Part shown: positions 42,100-53,985 of the stretch, piece after piece | How positions within the stretch are numbered: the first letter of the stretch is position 1 | Layout of the letters: each line of letters begins with the position of its first letter | Source: Parietichytrium sp. I65-24A | Lineage: Eukaryota; Sar; Bigyra; Thraustochytrida; Thraustochytriidae | Assembly: GCA_012862575.1 (NCBI GenBank) | Contig: BLSF01000031.1 | Span: 124,001 to 188,000, forward strand | Direction: 5' to 3' | DNA: 64,000 bases | The notes under the pieces: generated by a model | What the model saw: the letters and a program-made list of their open reading frames with translations, nothing else | Told to the model about the DNA's origin: nothing | Database searches by the model: none | Made by a program: the position numbers and the translations under genes

Positions 42100-44109
42100 T
42101 CAGCAATATAAACTTAAATAAGGTGGAGGAGCGGGCTTTGCTCGCTGAGGTGCGAGACACGGAGACTCGTGCCCAAACCGCGCCGAAAACTGTGTGTAAA
42201 GCAAGGCAATCTCTTTCGAAATACTTGCCTTGATATGTGAGACAGACTTTTCCAGATCCACTTCGACGCACTGATCTTTGCGACACCCAATCGCATCCTT
42301 AACAATGAGAACTAAATCACAGGCGGAGTACCCTTCCGTGCTCCTGACAAGACGACTCAAGATCTTTTCAGAAGGAAGATCCAACGAACGATGCGCGAGC
42401 GCTTGATTAAAGATCTCTCTACGAGCTGCGGCGTCGGGCAGCGCAACCAAAATCCTTCTTTCAAAGTGCCTCAACACAGAGACATCAATTTCCCACGGAA
42501 GATTCGTTGAGCCAATGACGAGGATATTCGATGGCAACTGATCCATCTGGCTCTGAAAACTCAGCTTTAAACGGTCAATTTTGCACAAAATATCCACAGC
42601 ATCGATGTAAATCACCGTCGGCCGCGAGTCTTGGGCAGCCGTTGATTGCGCTAATTTAAAAAGCGACTCGATGTGCTCGGTCTCCCGAAGTTCTCCTGAC
42701 GACACAGAAATAAACCCTATCGAGTTGAGTTGTTCATGCATTATCACATTTGCAACAGATGACTTTCCGCTGCCAGGAGGACCAAACAAGAGCACCCCAG
42801 AGAACGCAAAGCAGCCTTTTGAGTCAATCCGCAGGCACTGGCGTAGAGTCGCCAGGGCCTCGTCGAGGCCTACCAACTTTTTTCCCCTAGAAAGATGGGA
42901 GGAGCGAACAAGCCAGCGAGACATGTCTGCCTGGCCGCAAGCAGTTTCAGACTTGAGGGGAGGTGCAGAAGCTGGACGATCAACAACCGCCTCGTTCTGC
43001 GCCCTAGGCAGAGGCGGAGTCGGTGCACGACCAAGACCTTGCCACCTTAGGTATTCCTCTTCTACCTCCGAGCCAACCGACGATGTCGCCAAAAGCTTTC
43101 GGGATGTACGCTCTTCCTGCAGTTGCCTTGCCATAAAAGGGTCCGGACTGCATAATACTGTTGGATTGAGCATCTTGTGAATCGTAGATTCTGCTTTGTT
43201 CACCTGTACTTTAGAGATCGACCCGCAATCTGAATGCACAATGAACGGAGATAGGTCTTTGAATTTCTCTTGTTGCAAGAAAAAGAAGAAAGAGTGCTGT
43301 GGCTCGTCGCCGACTCTTTTCTTGTTTTCCGCGGCTTCGCATGAGGCGACATCAGCCTGTTTTCCAGTCGCACTCTCCACCATGTGCAATTGGCCGGATA
43401 AGGTCATGTCTGCAACCAACCCTTCTAAGGGATCCGAGTTCCAAGACAGAACGTCCAGAGGGCCAAAAAGCGAGCTTGCGCTCTCCCTTGATTCAGCAGT
43501 GTCCTTGAGCATCTCCGATCCAGTTCCATTTGACAGATTGTCCAAAATCTTGTCTATCTCCTGCACAGAGTTACTCAGTCTTGACTCTCGCAAATTTTCC
43601 CCGAAGCGGAATTTGGAAGGGTCCATTCCCGAGAGCAATAATGATGTAATAAACGAAGGTTCCACAGACAACCGCGCAAAATGTTGCGCAGGATCTATTC
43701 GCTCACACACAACGGCGCGCGGCACCCTGATGTTCACTGGAGCGTAATTCAAAATCAACCGGATTCCTGCCTCAACAAGCTGGTCTGCCGCTTTTTGCGC
43801 AGCCGGAGGAGGGACTGCTATGATTGCTCGGTACACGCCGTTTTGTTGAACCCTTTGGTTAAGCACTTCTGTGCTTTCCACAACGATGCCATGTAGCTGA
43901 AGACCAACCTTGGATGGATCTGAATCAAATACGCCTACCACACGCAAGCCGTGCTGAGAAAAGCTCGGGAGGCTTATTAGACTCTGACCTAGCCTCCCCG
44001 CCCCCATGATAACAACATCAAGCGATGACTTTCTCCACAAATGGCTGTGGCCCGCCGACGCCGCAGCCGTTGTCTTCTGTTGAAGCCACAGACTCCGCAG
44101 GTACTCCAT
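42100..44109 (-). CDS. Rex-type NAD(H)-sensing domain fused to an AAA+ ATPase
   Basis: One uninterrupted 669-aa frame from the ATG at 44109. Residues about 30-150 match the Rossmann domain of the bacterial redox repressor Rex: DVVIMGAGRLGQSL with the dinucleotide loop GAGRLG (36-41), VVGVFDSDPSKVG (57-69), IAVPPPAAQKAADQLVEAGI (97-116) and ILNYAPVNIRVP. The DNA-binding winged helix of Rex is absent. After a linker of about 250 residues, an AAA+ module starts near 410 (KLVGLDEALATL): Walker A GPPGSGKSS (443-451), Walker B region IYIDAVD (500-506), sensor 1 GSTN (Asn535), and Arg551/Arg552 (HFERR) as arginine fingers. GYSACDL (593-599) resembles the VPS4/katanin-type C-domain. Ala504 replaces the catalytic Walker B Glu, so hydrolysis may be lost. 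I infer an NADH-responsive ATP-binding switch. The N-terminus is mildly basic. Confidence 0.9.
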   Translation of the reverse strand: MEYLRSLWLQQKTTAAASAGHSHLWRKSSLDVVIMGAGRLGQSLISLPSFSQHGLRVVGVFDSDPSKVGLQLHGIVVESTEVLNQRVQQNGVYRAIIAVPPPAAQKAADQLVEAGIRLILNYAPVNIRVPRAVVCERIDPAQHFARLSVEPSFITSLLLSGMDPSKFRFGENLRESRLSNSVQEIDKILDNLSNGTGSEMLKDTAESRESASSLFGPLDVLSWNSDPLEGLVADMTLSGQLHMVESATGKQADVASCEAAENKKRVGDEPQHSFFFFLQQEKFKDLSPFIVHSDCGSISKVQVNKAESTIHKMLNPTVLCSPDPFMARQLQEERTSRKLLATSSVGSEVEEEYLRWQGLGRAPTPPLPRAQNEAVVDRPASAPPLKSETACGQADMSRWLVRSSHLSRGKKLVGLDEALATLRQCLRIDSKGCFAFSGVLLFGPPGSGKSSVANVIMHEQLNSIGFISVSSGELRETEHIESLFKLAQSTAAQDSRPTVIYIDAVDILCKIDRLKLSFQSQMDQLPSNILVIGSTNLPWEIDVSVLRHFERRILVALPDAAARREIFNQALAHRSLDLPSEKILSRLVRSTEGYSACDLVLIVKDAIGCRKDQCVEVDLEKSVSHIKASISKEIALLYTQFSARFGHESPCLAPQRAKPAPPPYLSLYC

Positions 44110-44915
44110 CCTGCACCCTAGAAGAACGAGTTTCGTGGGAGCGACTGTGTAACTTAGACCTCAGGCTCAGATATGCACAAATTCTGCAAAGTATCGACCA
44201 GTGATTGGTGATTAGGCAGCTGTGACATTTATCACACAGCTGGCCTGCCTCCACACTACCGTGGGCGCTTTTCGCCAGCCTCTGGTTCGGACCCCAAACC
44301 GCCCGCTTCGGCAGCGAGAGGAAGAGAGAGCCCTTCTTCTTTAAAAACTCCGAGGCAGCGAAAGAGAGAAGACCTTCAGTATGGGATCAGGATTCGGCAG
44401 ACTCCAGCCGCCACGGGACCACGGGACCACGGGGCCGCAAGACTACGAGGGCGCGCAACGCGCAACGCTCACAAACACAAACACAGACTGCAGTAGACTG
44501 CAGTGGGTGTCAATGAGTGTCAATGGGCTCGGGTCGGTTGCTGGGATATCGTTCCGATTGAGGGCGGTTCGAAGGTGGGCTTGCAGTGCAAATAACAGTC
44601 CTCTCCACGGCGCAGCGTCTAGTGCGAGCGAACGAGCGAGCCAAGATGAGTGCGAGAGAATGAAAAATGTCGAGTGCGCTGCTCCCTCCCCTATTCGTAT
44701 CGCTATCTCGCTATCTCGCTATTCCGCTATCTCGCTATCCCGCTATCTCTTTGGTCGCTCTCTTCAGTCTGTTCGATCGCCTGCTTGTCTTCCTTCCCCT
44801 CAGAGTGCCTCTCTCCTTTCTTCTTTCCTCTTCCCTCTTTTCTCTTTTCTCTTTTGGGTCGTTTCGCAGTGTCTCCTCAGGCTCCTCACAGTCGGCCTTT
44901 CTCTCACTCCTCTGA

Positions 44916-44946
<31 letters not shown>

Positions 44947-46334
44947 CCTTCCCCTTCCTTTCCTTCGTCTGTCGCGCGCCTTATTGTTTATCATATCCCA
45001 CACTACCTCCGGTGAGGTCGCTACTTGCCCTACGGCCTACTGTATTCGTCCGTGTTCAGTGGGTAGCTCTGGCACTGATGTCAAAGACCTTCCAGCTTTT
45101 GAGGAGGCTGAAAGAGAGCTTTCAGAGCTAGAAACTAGAAACTACAAAATTCTCAGCGAATGAAACAGGGTGAAACAGACAGATCAACAGATGAACACAT
45201 TGCATGCTGGCCATCGCATCTCAACGCGAGGTTTTACCACAAACCGGTACAGTGGTAGAATATGGTAGAATGGTAGAACGTCAAAAATGTCCCCTGCCTT
45301 TGGCATTGCTATCACACACCACTGTTTCCGCTAGCCTTTTCCTGGACAACCTGGTATACTCGGCCACTCGTAGGAAATTTATACCAGCACCAATAGCGAG
45401 TACATTTCTTCGCCAAAAAATAAACGTTAGCCCAACTTGGTAGAAAGTTACCATAGATTTGGATAGCGATGTTTTTTACTATAGCTTGCTTGTATGCGGC
45501 TATCGGGTTTCGGACTAGTAGAGTCAACGATGGCTACAACTTAGTGTGATTTTAATTAAATCCTATTCTGATGTGGGAGACACCTAGTAGGAGATGCGGA
45601 CGGAGAGGTACAGTTAGCGACAATCATAGATCTAAATAAGAATGAGAGCACACTACGCAACATAGCTAATTTCTAGATGGCTTCATACTTGGGGTACGGA
45701 GCAAGTATTCGCACCAGTAGCATTGGGGTCTGGTATCTAGCTCTTAACACGGCAACGCAAAAAGGTGCTTTATACCCCGTTTGAGCAACATAACGATAAC
45801 GTCTAATCGATTTGCTAAAGGTTGCAACGGTCATCAGAATTCAGACTTGAGAAAACAGAAAACAGAATCCCCAGTCTGTGTGAGGTCTGAGAGGTCTGAG
45901 TGAGGAATACCAGTACGGCTGTAAGGCTGTAAGGCTGTACGACAGGCATCAGCTATCATCAGGTGAACAGGTTGAACAGGTGGATGGGTGCTTAGCGAAT
46001 TGGTGCGATACGCAACTTGTGCACTGCACTGGCACCGTCCCGCGTGAGCCAAGTCGAGCGTGGAGCGTCGAGCGGAGTGGAGTCGAGAGCGTTCCAGTGC
46101 GGTCGATCCTCGCGGCGTTTGTAACACCTCTCAGAGCTCTCAAAGGAAGCACCGCATACTAAGCGGCCGAGCTCGTGATTGTCACGGCCACGGAAGCCAG
46201 ACGACAAGCAACACGTCGTTTACAGGAGCGTGTTTCCATCACCAATCGCGCGAGGCTATCGATCGTCATCTTCGAAACTGTCCGAGAGCCCCGGCGGACG
46301 GGCAAGCAAAAGCAGCAGTGCTTCATTGTTAAAA
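44110..46334. other. Divergent intergenic region
   Basis: Between Rex-AAA (-) and IFT80 (+). Holds a CTATCTCG tandem repeat at about 44697-44750, (CT)n-rich stretches at about 44920-44950, and GGTAGAATGGTAGAA repeats near 45253-45277. It also holds a GCTGTAAG repeat near 45919-45940 and an AGAATTCAG-type motif at 45837-45850. Long open frames at 44381-45163 are low-complexity products of the repeats. No gene called. Confidence 0.55.
44697..44750. repeat. CTATCTCG tandem repeat
   Basis: About six copies of an 8-bp unit CGCTATCT, with CGCTATCC and CGCTATTC variants, just upstream of further CT-rich sequence. Confidence 0.75.
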
Positions 46335-48686
46335 ATGCTCAAGCTCAGCTGCAAGGTTTCAAGCAGGCAGCATGTGGAGATGGCCACGGCTTGCGACTGG
46401 CTGCCTGCCGTGCAGCAGCTGTTGTCTTGCTCCGACGACAAGACCATTAAGAGGCTAGACGCCGACGAAATGGCATTTGAACAGGTTTGTGCCTTGGAGG
46501 GGTACCCTACCGACATGAAGAGTTGTCCGTCTTTAAACGAAAAGCAGCCCTCCGATGTTGTGGCCGTCACGTGCTCCGATGGCTCCTTCGTGATCCTTCA
46601 GGCGAGCACTGGTCGAGAGGAGAAAAGGGTACAAGCATACACCGCCGGCGCAGCTATCTCTGTGGCTTGGAGCCTTGACGGAGCCGCTTTGGCTACTGGA
46701 GGCGAGGACGGTGTGGTGAAAATTTGGTCACGAGCCGGAATGTTGCGAAATACAGTCGCAACAATGCGCTACCCGGTTTACTGCGTGTGCTGGGGAAGAG
46801 ACGACGCGCTGCTCTTTTCGAGCGGCAGGCAACTCACGATCGAGCAAAAACAGCAGAAACAGATTCAGTGGAAGGCGCACGACGGCACCATCCTCGCGGT
46901 GTCATGGAATCCAGTGAACAACCTGATCGTCTCCGGAGGAGAGGATTGCAAATACCGCATTTGGGACGCTTATGGCCGGCAGCTGTTTGTGAGCTCCCCG
47001 TTGGAGCATGTCGTCACCTGCCTATCGTGGGCTGCGAGCGGGAACTGCTTTGCCGTCGGCGCTTTCAACACTCTGAAGGTGTGTGACAAAACCGGCTGGA
47101 CCTTGTGCCGAGAAGATTTAGACCATAGTGGATCCCTCCTTGGCGTAAACTGGAGCCTGGACGGCACCATGATCGGGGCCTCTTGTGCAAATGGTTCGGT
47201 CATCGTTGCAGAGGTATCGAACAAGAGTCTGGAGTGGAAACATTTCAAGGCGGTCATGCTCGACTCAAAACAGGTGGAGGTCCACAACAGTCTGGAGGAC
47301 CAAACAGAGGTCTTGGTGTTCCGCGACCGAATTGTGGACATGTCTTTGGAGTTCGGCTATTTATTGGTACACACCTCGACTCCACAAGTGCACGTGTACA
47401 GCGTGACCGATCTGCAGTCTCCGACACTTGTGGACGTTCCCCCGTGCCAGTCATCTGTGCTTACTCAGAGCGCCAAGTACTTTTTGGCAGCATGGACAAT
47501 TTTCTCCTACGAAGGAAGACGCGTCACCACTTCACAGTGTCTCAGCGGGATCAACACCAACTTATTGGACCGAAACAGCACCACCATGAACGTCAATTAT
47601 ATGGCGGCCTTAGAAACCTCAAGAGATGCGATCCGGCTCGTGGACATTGCAAAGTCAAAACCAATTGCGGTGATCAAGCACAAACTTTTAATTTCGCAGA
47701 TTGCTATGGGCGAATCAGATATCCTTGCCTTCCTTGATGCCAATGGCGACCTATTTGTGCAGTGCACCGGGAAAAAGACGTTCAAGTTGCCTTGCACAAT
47801 GGTCGAGAGCATTCGCTTCAACGAGACTGGAGCTCTGGTCGCCACTTGCGACGGTGGGAACAAATTAGTGGTCTTCTTTTACCCCGAGATTGTCTGGGTA
47901 GACCCGGATCTTTTAGACGATACAAGCACGCACATCGACACCCCTCAGCTTGCTTCCAAACAACCTACCGTGAGCTCGTTTACTGAGCACATGGTGACGC
48001 TGCGCGAGCACAGCGGAGCTCTAATAACCGTCAGCATTTCCAGATATCCTGCTGTTCTTCATGAGCTCGTGCGCCAACGCAAGTGGGAAGACGCAATCAG
48101 ACTCTGTAGGTTTGTCAACCAGCGATTTCTCTGGGCAATTCTTGCTGGCAGAGCTTTGGACAAGTGCCACCTGGATTCCGCAGAAATCGGGCTTGCTTCC
48201 CTGCAGAACGTGGCAAAGCTCAACTACATCCTCTATATTAAGGACATTTCAAATGAAAAGGCCAAGATGGCAGAATTGGCCCTATACAAGCGAGACCTCA
48301 AGGCTGCAGAAACCATCCTTCTTCAGAGTAACCCCCCGCTGCTCTATCGCGCCGTTAAAATGAACATGAGGATGCACAGATGGTCTCGCGCTGCAGAAAT
48401 TGCGAAAAATCAGAAACAACTCGTACGCATGGTGGAGCTCTATGAGAAGCAATGGAAAGCGCAGCAAGTCTTGTCGGACTCGGAACTGAAAGAGCTGAAG
48501 AGTATTAAACAAAAATTTAGCGATAAACCTGCGGACGAAGAAGAAGAGGAGGAGGAGCAGGAAGAAGACGCTGGCGGTGAGGACCCACAAAGGGCCAATC
48601 AAAACTCGGCAGGTGGCCAGGACGAAGATGATGAGGCGGACGCGGATGAGGCCGAAGGCAAGGGCGGCGAAGAGTCGAAATTCTGA
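46335..48686 (+). CDS. IFT80: Intraflagellar transport protein IFT80
   Basis: IFT-B complex subunit needed to build cilia and flagella. It is 783 aa (human 777) from the first ATG at 46335 (MLKLSCKVSSRQHVEMATAC); the frame is open upstream from a TTG but has no earlier ATG. Two WD40 propellers: the first shows SCSDDKTIKRL, LATGGEDGVVKIWSRAGMLR, QWKAHDGTILAVSWNPVN, SGGEDCKYRIWDAYGR and CDKTGW. The second includes SIRFNETGALVATCDG and FYPEIVWVDPDLL. The helical C-terminal part includes ISRYPAVLHELV, RKWEDAIRLCRFV and LYKRDLKAAETILLQ, all close to animal IFT80. An acidic tail (about the last 60 residues, Glu/Asp/Gly-rich) replaces the usual basic tail. No introns. It shows that the organism makes flagellated cells. 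Confidence 0.97.
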   Translation: MLKLSCKVSSRQHVEMATACDWLPAVQQLLSCSDDKTIKRLDADEMAFEQVCALEGYPTDMKSCPSLNEKQPSDVVAVTCSDGSFVILQASTGREEKRVQAYTAGAAISVAWSLDGAALATGGEDGVVKIWSRAGMLRNTVATMRYPVYCVCWGRDDALLFSSGRQLTIEQKQQKQIQWKAHDGTILAVSWNPVNNLIVSGGEDCKYRIWDAYGRQLFVSSPLEHVVTCLSWAASGNCFAVGAFNTLKVCDKTGWTLCREDLDHSGSLLGVNWSLDGTMIGASCANGSVIVAEVSNKSLEWKHFKAVMLDSKQVEVHNSLEDQTEVLVFRDRIVDMSLEFGYLLVHTSTPQVHVYSVTDLQSPTLVDVPPCQSSVLTQSAKYFLAAWTIFSYEGRRVTTSQCLSGINTNLLDRNSTTMNVNYMAALETSRDAIRLVDIAKSKPIAVIKHKLLISQIAMGESDILAFLDANGDLFVQCTGKKTFKLPCTMVESIRFNETGALVATCDGGNKLVVFFYPEIVWVDPDLLDDTSTHIDTPQLASKQPTVSSFTEHMVTLREHSGALITVSISRYPAVLHELVRQRKWEDAIRLCRFVNQRFLWAILAGRALDKCHLDSAEIGLASLQNVAKLNYILYIKDISNEKAKMAELALYKRDLKAAETILLQSNPPLLYRAVKMNMRMHRWSRAAEIAKNQKQLVRMVELYEKQWKAQQVLSDSELKELKSIKQKFSDKPADEEEEEEEQEEDAGGEDPQRANQNSAGGQDEDDEADADEAEGKGGEESKF

Positions 48687-51437: not shown

Positions 51438-52251
51438 CCCGAGCAATCTCTTGTCAGTTCGACGAGACTTTTCAAGGTCCATGAGTCTTGAGCCTAATCT
51501 GAGTGTTTTAAGTAGGCTATGAGAATCGGTTAGGACAATGTCTAGCGCTCCACAACGCTGATCCATAATCTCTTTTTTGTTTTGTTTTTTTGGCTCAGAA
51601 AAAATTGACTCAACCAAACACCGTATTCACAGTCAGTACCTGTCGTGTTTGATGACGAGGCGTCGCTTCTTGAGTGCACCCCACCAATTTGACAGCAACC
51701 CACAACGTGCTAATCGTCTCCCTTCTAATGCATTCATTCTTCCTGGCTAGGAACGGGTTTCTCGACCAACATGACAAGCGTATGGACAGCATGCATAGGC
51801 ATTACCGTAGTCCATTTCGCCGTAACGGACCCCGTGCTTGGACGATTGATCGCAAATTCTCCCAACTCCTCCAAGCCACCTCCCCCAATGCTTGCAAATT
51901 AATTGACTGTGAGTCCATTTTACAATGAAATAAAAACGATGCTGACCCTCCCGCACCAGGGAATTAACAGTGAGTTGCATCATCAGCAAAGCACCTCTTT
52001 GTGCCGTTGAAGACGCGGATATTTGCGAAATTTGGTGAAGCAGAAGCTAGATATATCGACGGCATATTCCTCGAAACACTGTTGGAACAAGATTTGGAGG
52101 CTCAAGACGTCAACGTAGGGTTGTGGATGGATCACAAGAGAGGCGGCTTGTCAACAAAAGCTCTCTGACAGTCGAGTGGGCGCTGTTTGGATTCTGCAAG
52201 CAGTGCCCAAACGCTTGCAGCTTGCTGGAGTTGTGCACGGCAATCTTTACC
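51438..52251. other. Intergenic region
   Basis: Between two plus-strand genes; holds a T-rich run near 51570-51590. Open frames on the minus strand (51747-51989) have no support. A GTG-led frame upstream of the carotenoid-oxygenase ATG is not credited as coding. Confidence 0.55.
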
Positions 52252-53985
52252 ATGATGAAGCTCCAAACCATCCTCTTTGGTGTAGCTCTTGGAACCCCTT
52301 GCACCAAAGCGCTGCAACTCAATCTCGAGGAGGTGTCTGCGAGTGGTATTGTGGAGCATGGTTGCGTTCCGGCATGGTTGAACGGGACGCTGCTCACTAA
52401 TGGCCCATCGGTCCACAATTTCACGGCATATGGAGACCTTGGCGAGACCTCGCATTACTTTGACGGCCTCGGTGGGATTTCCGCGCTGCGATTTGAGGAC
52501 GGTCGCGTCACGTTTGAGTCGAAAATCACCGAAAGCAAAACCTTTCAAAAACTGACACGCGAGAAGCGCTACGATAGCGTGACATTTGGCCCAGTTCTCA
52601 AAAGAAGCTGGGCCAGCAAGCTGTCGAAGCTTCTGCAAGGACAGTGGTTATTTGACAATGCAAACATAAATATCTGGCCACTGTTTGGCGGCAACGCATT
52701 GACTGCATCTGACAGTGCATACCACCAAGTTGTTGACCGCACCAGTCTAGAAACTGTGGCTCAGCACTCACACGACGAACTCGGTCCATTTGGTGCTGCC
52801 CACGCAGCTATAGACCAATGTAAGTTCCACATAAATCAACTCGGCAAATTTGTTGGCCACACTCGTTTGAACAGGGCATGACGCGGATACTAACTGCGGC
52901 GTTGAAAAAAAAATTGCGCAGACACTGGAGAAATGTTTAATTACGCCGGGCCTCTGCAACTTTCTTTTGACTTTGAAAACTTGTATCCGATTGCAGAATA
53001 TGCTTTGACTCGTGACGAAGCTAGAAATGGCGATGACGGCCAGACTTTCATCAACAGGACGATATTGTCAAAGGTTTGGGCGCCTTTCCCGTGGATTAGT
53101 CACAGCATAGGCTTGACGGAAAACTACGTAATCCACCGAGTGTTGAGCGAGCGGCTTTCTCCAAAACTTTTTGCGGACTTCTTATCAGACCATCTAGTAT
53201 TGAGCAAAAGAAGCCCGGTCAAGATGTTTGTGTTGGATCGGAGATCTCACCAACTTCACGAAGCCACTTGTAACCAGGCGTTCAGCAGTTTTCATATCAT
53301 CAACTCGTTCGAAACAGGTGATGGTTCGATTGTGGTGGACTCTGTGAGTTCAAACTCTGGACTGCTGAACGACCGAACTCGGGATGTGTTCAGCCGCGGC
53401 TACAAACCGGCGCATGCTCGACAGAATGGTGCTGTAGAGGACGCCGAGAACATTGAGTACTTGTATAAGAGGTGCACGATTACTCTGAATGGTCGAACAA
53501 ACCGAGACAACTTCATGTTGAGGCAAGGTCTTCAGGAGACATCATCACAAGTGAATGCTTGCGAGTGTCAAGACCTTCTCGCATTCCCATTTGAACTTCC
53601 TGTCATCAATCCGCTTTTCAAAGGCAAGGTGCATAAGTTCGTCTGGGGCGCGGCTGGGGTCGGCAAAACGCTTTGGACAAACGGCGTTGTTAAACTGCGC
53701 CTGATCTCTGGAAAAGCTGTGGTAGAGCACGTCTGGAATGCTCCAGACGGGTTTATTTCTGGAGAACCGCGTTTCCTCCCGGGCAAGTCAAAGAAGGAAG
53801 AGGACGATGGCTTCATCGCAGTATTAGTGTTGGATGACGTTGGCGATAGCGCTGCACGGTTGTATCTTCTCAGCGCTGCAACACTCGCCGAGGAAGCAGT
53901 TGTCAGGCTCCCGATTGATATGCCCTTGCAAACCCACGGCGTGTTTATGGACAATCTTAACCCAGACATACTGTTCTGGAATTGA
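52252..53985 (+). CDS. Carotenoid cleavage oxygenase (RPE65/BCO/CCD family)
   Basis: Fe(II) enzyme cleaving carotenoid or related polyene double bonds. Two exons, 52252-52819 and 52922-53985, join across a 102-nt intron (GTAAGT donor; TACTAAC branch-like sequence at about 52888; acceptor GCGCAG) to 543 aa. The first ATG follows a GTG-led open frame. The N-terminus MMKLQTILFGVALGTPCTKA is hydrophobic and could be a signal peptide. Motifs: YFDGLGGISALRF, then the four iron-binding His: His184 (AAHAAID), His250 (WISHSIGLTENYV), His314 (SSFHIINSFE) and His528 (THGVFMD). The Asp-Gln-Tyr-Thr-Gly-Glu bridging the splice matches the DxxTGE segment after the first His. The substrate cannot be told; the sequence is divergent from plant CCDs. 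Confidence 0.92.

Follow-up and report, generated by a model that had tools for sequence, protein, structure and literature searches.

What would a protein do that joins a Rex-type NAD(H)-binding fold to an AAA domain in a eukaryote? The question is raised by one uninterrupted reading frame of 669 amino acids in the window, by which we mean the whole 64,000-nucleotide stretch of DNA analysed here. The frame is read on the minus strand from 44109 to 42100 and holds 669 codons without a stop, whereas the plus strand of the same stretch has many stops. A preliminary description had reported this frame with no strand; it is present as described and lies on the minus strand. Its main parts are as follows:

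42100..44109, minus strand: 669-aa frame with Rex-type Rossmann domain, linker and AAA domain (frame, codon score)
43666..44028, minus strand: Rex-type NAD(H)-binding Rossmann domain, residues 28-148 (matches to NF003995, PF02629 and Rex structures in the PDB)
42898..43614, minus strand: linker, residues 166-404, without a family match and with a disorder-leaning composition (Pfam, composition)
42190..42897, minus strand: AAA domain of the VPS4/katanin/spastin group, residues 405-640 (PF00004; tree with the genome's own VPS4 pair)

The gene is located 166 kb from the start of a 518,625-bp contig, in a genome of 42.5 Mb and 172 contigs. A profile scan gave family matches for nine of ten window frames, and the neighbours identified in this way include PH/filamin, IFT80, GARS/formyltransferase, ribosomal protein S4e (RPS4e), RPE65, 14-3-3 and GYF. 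We consider the window to be eukaryotic sequence because of these family matches; a eukaryotic 18S fragment is also present in the genome. At the end of contig C16 (L021, 1-1668), an 18S rRNA 3' end lies directly behind sequence that by eye resembles a retrotransposon polyprotein gene. In the window, the RPE65-like carotenoid oxygenase (52123-53985, plus strand) is matched by two frames in profile order, suggesting a short intron between them. A 260-aa frame between the fusion gene and IFT80 (44381-45163, plus strand) is of low complexity by eye and is probably no gene.

Two genes, or exons of different genes, might have been read as one frame through a gene-model or assembly artefact. We scanned the frame for the donor words GTRAGT, GTRAGG and GTRAGA and found none anywhere in it. 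Three donor-like words do occur: GTGTGT at 43710 and GTGAGC at 43706 both lie within the Rex domain, and GCAAGT at 42228 is close to the C-terminal end. The first two count in favour of an artefact, and none of the three falls in the linker. For the donor words scanned, the preliminary statement that no stop or splice signal separates the halves agrees with the result. Codon log-odds were trained on nine other window frames, and six frames were compared per segment. The true frame scored best for each segment of residues 29-350 (the Rex domain and linker residues 151-350) and for residues 405-640 (AAA). It did not score best for the short stretches 1-28, 351-400 and 641-669, which could be taken as a sign of joined pieces. 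GC3 in the linker is 0.46-0.58, similar to the 0.49 and 0.53 of the two domains, and other window frames have 0.53-0.63. The open run of 669 codons with no GTRAGT donor, the in-frame coding signal across linker residues 151-350 and the position of the gene 166 kb inside a 519-kb contig all speak against an artefact, which we consider very improbable. The Rex-AAA fusion is real in sequence.

Profile searches placed the N-terminal domain with Rex. The NCBIfam Rex model NF003995 matched residues 28-148 (E 1.5e-34, 119.4 bits), a score under its 126-bit cut-off, with the first 81 profile positions unmatched; the other Rex models listed were likewise all under their cut-offs. Pfam CoA_binding (PF02629) matched residues 31-125 above its curated cut-off (E 1.9e-17). 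These matches bear out the Rex-like Rossmann domain that had been proposed at residues 30-150. In a search of PDB chains, Rex structures came top (E 2.1e-22), followed by dihydrodipicolinate reductase (3.7e-4) and succinyl-CoA ligases (3e-3). Other CoA_binding (PF02629) and Rossmann proteins therefore share the Pfam family with the fusion domain, but Rex structures score far better against it. The identification as Rex is far beyond chance. The genome contains two PF02629 matches, the fusion gene and one on contig C67, which we take to be succinyl-CoA ligase alpha.

The domain aligns without gaps to the bacterial Rex profile over 123 positions (residues 27-149). Among 70 bacterial Rex sequences, 26 columns are conserved in 80% or more, and the fusion keeps 21 of these columns, including G36, G38, G41, D62 and A104 (each in 70 of 70) as well as N121 and D139, the counterpart of Asp188 in T. 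aquaticus Rex. The lost columns are G25, A43 (to S), Y47 (to L), F122 (to Y) and L144 (to F). S43 replaces an Ala found in 68 of the 70, and L118 stands where bacterial Rex mostly has Gly or Ala. Three sites belong to the pocket and the switch:

43987..44004, minus strand: GAGRLG dinucleotide-binding loop, residues 36-41 (G36, G38 and G41 identical in 70/70 bacterial Rex)
43924..43926, minus strand: Asp62, end of the second beta-strand (Asp in 70/70 bacterial Rex)
43969..43971, minus strand: Leu47 at the place of the T. aquaticus Rex switch residue Tyr98 (Tyr in 59/70 bacterial Rex, Leu in 0/70)

Asp62 stands at the position of the NAD-type acid. According to the accounts of T. aquaticus Rex, NAD+ is told from NADH by Ala94, Tyr98, Asp188 and the main chain of Phe189, together with Arg16 of the winged helix (PMC6125430, PMC8063818), and Asp188 is described as central to redox sensing (PMC6125430). 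Our alignments map Ala94 to S43, Tyr98 to L47, Asp188 to D139 and Phe189 to P140; the contacts of Phe189 are described there as main-chain ones. Of the switch pair Tyr98 and Asp188, the Asp is kept and the Tyr lost. As read from these aligned residues, the dinucleotide pocket is kept and the redox switch is only partly kept.

No winged helix was found, in line with the earlier claim. The frame starts 27 residues before the Rex domain, while all 74 bacterial relatives have at least 79 residues, counted stop to stop, before the matched start, as expected for a winged helix. A profile built from the N-termini of bacterial Rex was run against 107 six-frame pieces of the upstream region 44110-46600, and nothing rose above noise (best E 0.83). 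A search of the genome for the winged helix itself (PF06971, Put_DNA-bind_N) gave no candidate at E≤10, although a domain split by an intron could be missed by it; in a control, the same search found matches in 9 of 14 named genomes. The peptide MEYLRSL was considered as a remnant of Rex helix 1 and rejected: MAFFT does align it with that helix, but shuffled versions matched its score in 179 of 1000 cases. SoNar, built from the NADH domain of T. aquaticus Rex without the DNA-binding domain, is described as still reading the NADH/NAD+ ratio, with Kd values of 0.2 uM for NADH and 5.0 uM for NAD+ (PMC6747460), so the missing winged helix is in itself compatible with sensing. At the other end of the domain, the profile match reaches residue 149, and the C-terminal helix departs from Rex at P140, V149 and P151; for this reason, dimerisation by helix swapping may be lost too.

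Set beside Rex repressors (T. aquaticus 1XCB/3IKT, 5ZZ5; NF003995), the fusion shares the gapless Rossmann alignment, the GxGxxG loop, Asp62, Asp139 and the 21 of 26 conserved positions. It differs in that no winged helix was found, Tyr98 and Ala94 are replaced, Pro stands at Phe189, a linker and an AAA domain are attached, and the host is a eukaryote. SoNar and related sensors made from T. aquaticus Rex offer another parallel, as they also carry a Rex NADH domain without the DNA-binding domain in a fusion protein (PMC6747460), but SoNar is man-made with a fluorescent-protein partner, whereas the fusion gene is natural with an AAA partner.

Relatives of the Rex domain were collected from genome contigs (10 loci), plasmid records (11 records, three of them fetched) and groups of genomes. 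By group, a match at E≤0.001 was found in 49 of 149, 74 of 81, 9 of 10 and 2 of 58 genomes; the weakest of these matches are in long proteins that are probably not Rex. The loci fetched were the best matches of each search. They comprised 76 Rex loci, two of which (L050 and L085) failed the cut, leaving 74 loci and 70 distinct sequences. Planctomycetota (45%) and the phylum of a Cohnella genome (44%) were among the best matches. None of the 74 bacterial relatives can carry an AAA domain behind the Rossmann domain, since at most 179 residues follow the matched start. No end branch of the Rex tree is longer than that of the fusion, at 3.17 where the median is 0.56. The fork that groups the fusion with six other rows is supported at 81, and the fusion belongs to no starred set. 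We dropped the naming of a donor on account of this branch, the fork support and the missing star. No eukaryotic Rex-AAA fusion was found among the titles and abstract openings of the open-access papers retrieved.

The AAA module, previously put at residues 410-640, was recovered by PF00004 at residues 439-555, above the curated cut-off (E 1.3e-17). CDC48 and AFG2 rank first by whole-chain score because two domains are summed there. Over a single stretch (residues 494-610) the order among the matches listed, 60 of 141, was VPS4B (64 bits), spastin (57) and katanin (51), and the higher-scoring of two CDC48 domains reached 36 bits. The nearest paralogs in the genome are two neighbouring VPS4 genes, L002 and L003, of which L002 matches VPS4B with E 2e-109. 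These two genes lie at C36:157768-160111 on the minus strand, and each has an AAA domain and, by eye, an MIT domain and a beta domain. In the AAA tree, the fusion stands beside this VPS4 pair (91/70), within a group of six paralogs from the genome (92/97); neither fork is starred, the fusion's branch is flagged as long, and a further paralog (L008) was left out of the alignment and the tree.

We mapped the AAA residues by alignment onto yeast Vps4 numbering. Of the 53 columns invariant in the six paralogs, 31 are kept in the fusion and 22 are lost, and the losses include Glu to A504, Arg to H548 and pore-loop positions:

42760..42783, minus strand: Walker A GPPGSGKS, residues 443-450, kept (alignment)
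42502..42504, minus strand: Asn536, sensor 1, kept, Vps4 N277 (alignment)
42598..42600, minus strand: Ala504 where Vps4 has the catalytic glutamate of Walker B, E233 (Glu in 6/6 aligned paralogs of the genome)
42466..42468, minus strand: His548 in place of the arginine finger R289 of Vps4, with Arg547 (R288) kept (Arg in 6/6 aligned paralogs of the genome)
42687..42688, minus strand: five residues of pore loop 1 missing between residues 474 and 475, Vps4 203-207 of 203-210 (alignment)
42582..42583, minus strand: gap after residue 509 and before 510, where nine Vps4 residues (239-247) have no counterpart, among them eight out of nine pore loop 2 positions (alignment)

The Walker A motif corresponds to Vps4 G173-S180, with T177 appearing as S447, and the D-E pair of the AAA Walker B reads D503-A504. 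Both pore-loop losses remove complete codons and leave the frame open. Pore loops 1 and 2 of Vps4 are given as residues 203-210 and 240-248 (PMC5413351). For yeast Vps4, R289A is reported to leave 7% of the ATPase activity and nearly to abolish hexamer assembly, and E233Q is the form solved with ATP bound (PMC5520056). The earlier view that both halves keep strong motifs consequently needs qualification: in the AAA half it holds for Walker A and sensor 1, but Walker B has lost its glutamate, one of the two arginine fingers is gone and so is most of each pore loop. Because the Walker B glutamate, R289 and most of the pore loops are lost, hydrolysis-driven work by the AAA domain alone is unlikely. 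Judging from the aligned residues, ATP binding by this domain is plausible, and it is very unlikely that the domain pulls proteins. In some AAA proteins, the ring is said to work although part of it lacks the glutamate or the finger. As R289, which supports assembly in Vps4, is lost, a ring made of the fusion protein alone is disfavoured.

In comparison with VPS4/SKD1 (5UIE, 6BMF, 2ZAM) and the genome's VPS4 pair, the fusion shares the AAA core, Walker A, sensor 1, GYS..D and the C-terminal helix pattern. It differs from them in the Walker B glutamate, in R289 (His), in most of the pore loops and in its N-terminal Rex domain. It also lacks an MIT match (none in the fusion at E≤1 with Pfam) and a beta domain (no insert at its place in the alignments).

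These residues bear directly on the idea, put forward in the preliminary description, of an ATPase gated by redox state, in which the Rex domain would read the NADH/NAD+ state and switch an ATP-hydrolysing AAA motor. Both domains do share one frame, the AAA half retains Walker A and sensor 1, the Rex half retains D139 (Asp188), and Rex without its DNA-binding part is described as able to sense the ratio (PMC6747460). However, the Walker B glutamate is an Ala, R289 is a His, most of both pore loops are gone, and the Rex switch residues Tyr98 and Ala94 are lost. We consider the gated motor very improbable. The alternative offered alongside it, an ATP-dependent scaffold, fits better, given the lost catalytic and pore-loop residues.

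Between the two domains lies a linker of about 240 residues, most of it with no Pfam match at E≤1; weak DUF815 and AAA_16 matches begin at residues 401 and 411. The shares of disorder- and order-promoting residues are 0.56 and 0.30 in the linker, 0.52 and 0.40 in the Rex domain and 0.49 and 0.39 in the AAA domain.

Our preferred reading, with a probability of about 0.5, is that the gene encodes a two-nucleotide receptor or scaffold, in which an NAD(H)-binding domain would sit on an ATP-binding, non-hydrolysing AAA domain, and not a redox-driven motor. This is the most economical reading because both halves keep their pockets and have lost the output machinery of their parent families, which for Rex is the DNA-binding part and part of the switch, and for VPS4 the catalytic and gripping parts. 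The N-terminal Rex-derived Rossmann fold would bind NAD(H), possibly as a dimer like Rex, and the C-terminal VPS4-type AAA domain would bind ATP through Walker A and sensor 1 and pull no substrates. A flexible linker would couple the two domains. Binding of NAD(H) and ATP could then set the assembly state of the protein itself or its docking onto a partner, for which one of the active AAA rings of the genome is the obvious candidate. We infer nucleotide binding, dimerisation, the loss of hydrolysis and the coupling of the domains from sequence. Counting against the two-nucleotide receptor or scaffold are the loss of Tyr98 and Ala94 from the Rex half and its diverged C-terminal helix positions, together with the loss of R289 where self-assembly is concerned and the AAA rings said to work with incomplete subunits.

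A rival reading takes the Rex domain for a structural or protein-binding module that has lost nucleotide binding, and the AAA domain for an ATP-independent adaptor. The switch residues and the C-terminal helix positions have diverged, L118 and S43 are unlike bacterial Rex, and the end branch in the Rex tree is the longest, all of which suits such a module. Yet the fusion retains the dinucleotide loop and Asp62 as well as Walker A and sensor 1, and we regard this possibility as unlikely. Functional positions have been lost in both halves, which could also point to a chance chimera on its way to loss, outside selection. The genome holds no second full copy of the fusion, and scans for viral relatives of the whole protein or of the Rex domain, made with a few short patterns that find close kin only, returned none; the missing second copy and the absence of kin in one viral-contig scan, again close kin only, would fit a chimera. 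Against this stand the 669 codons without a stop, the whole-codon deletions, the in-frame coding signal over most of the frame and a linker GC3 near that of the domains, so that a chance origin appears rather improbable to us.

A bolder idea starts from the two-nucleotide receptor or scaffold and sees in it an NAD(H)-dependent regulator. It would dock through its disarmed VPS4-like domain on active AAA rings, VPS4 above all, and so tie ESCRT membrane remodelling to the pyridine-nucleotide state. We hold this docking regulator to be improbable. If it were true, a eukaryote would have taken a bacterial redox sensor out of transcription and wired it to a protein machine. In the accounts consulted, Rex appears as a bacterial DNA-binding redox repressor or as part of man-made sensors. 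A eukaryotic Rex nucleotide domain stripped of its DNA-binding part and linked to an AAA domain that lacks motor parts would be a case of a metabolic sensor shifted from control at the gene to control at the protein level. The fusion is also a clean test object, with two separable nucleotide pockets in one protein. Should it prove to be a chance chimera, it would be a good example of why a motif-level label such as "NADH-gated ATPase" needs a residue-by-residue check.

Two minor observations concern the end of the frame and the genome at large. The C-terminus of the frame (window 42100-42150, minus strand) reads ...KPAPPPYLSLYC and includes PPPY, a motif of the WW-domain-binding type; its occurrence may be chance. 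On contig C66 (8562-22499), the genome has an open frame of 5583 amino acids that resembles a large polyketide synthase gene, and four stretches of it match positions 176-516 of the PfaA profile, below the cut-off of that profile.
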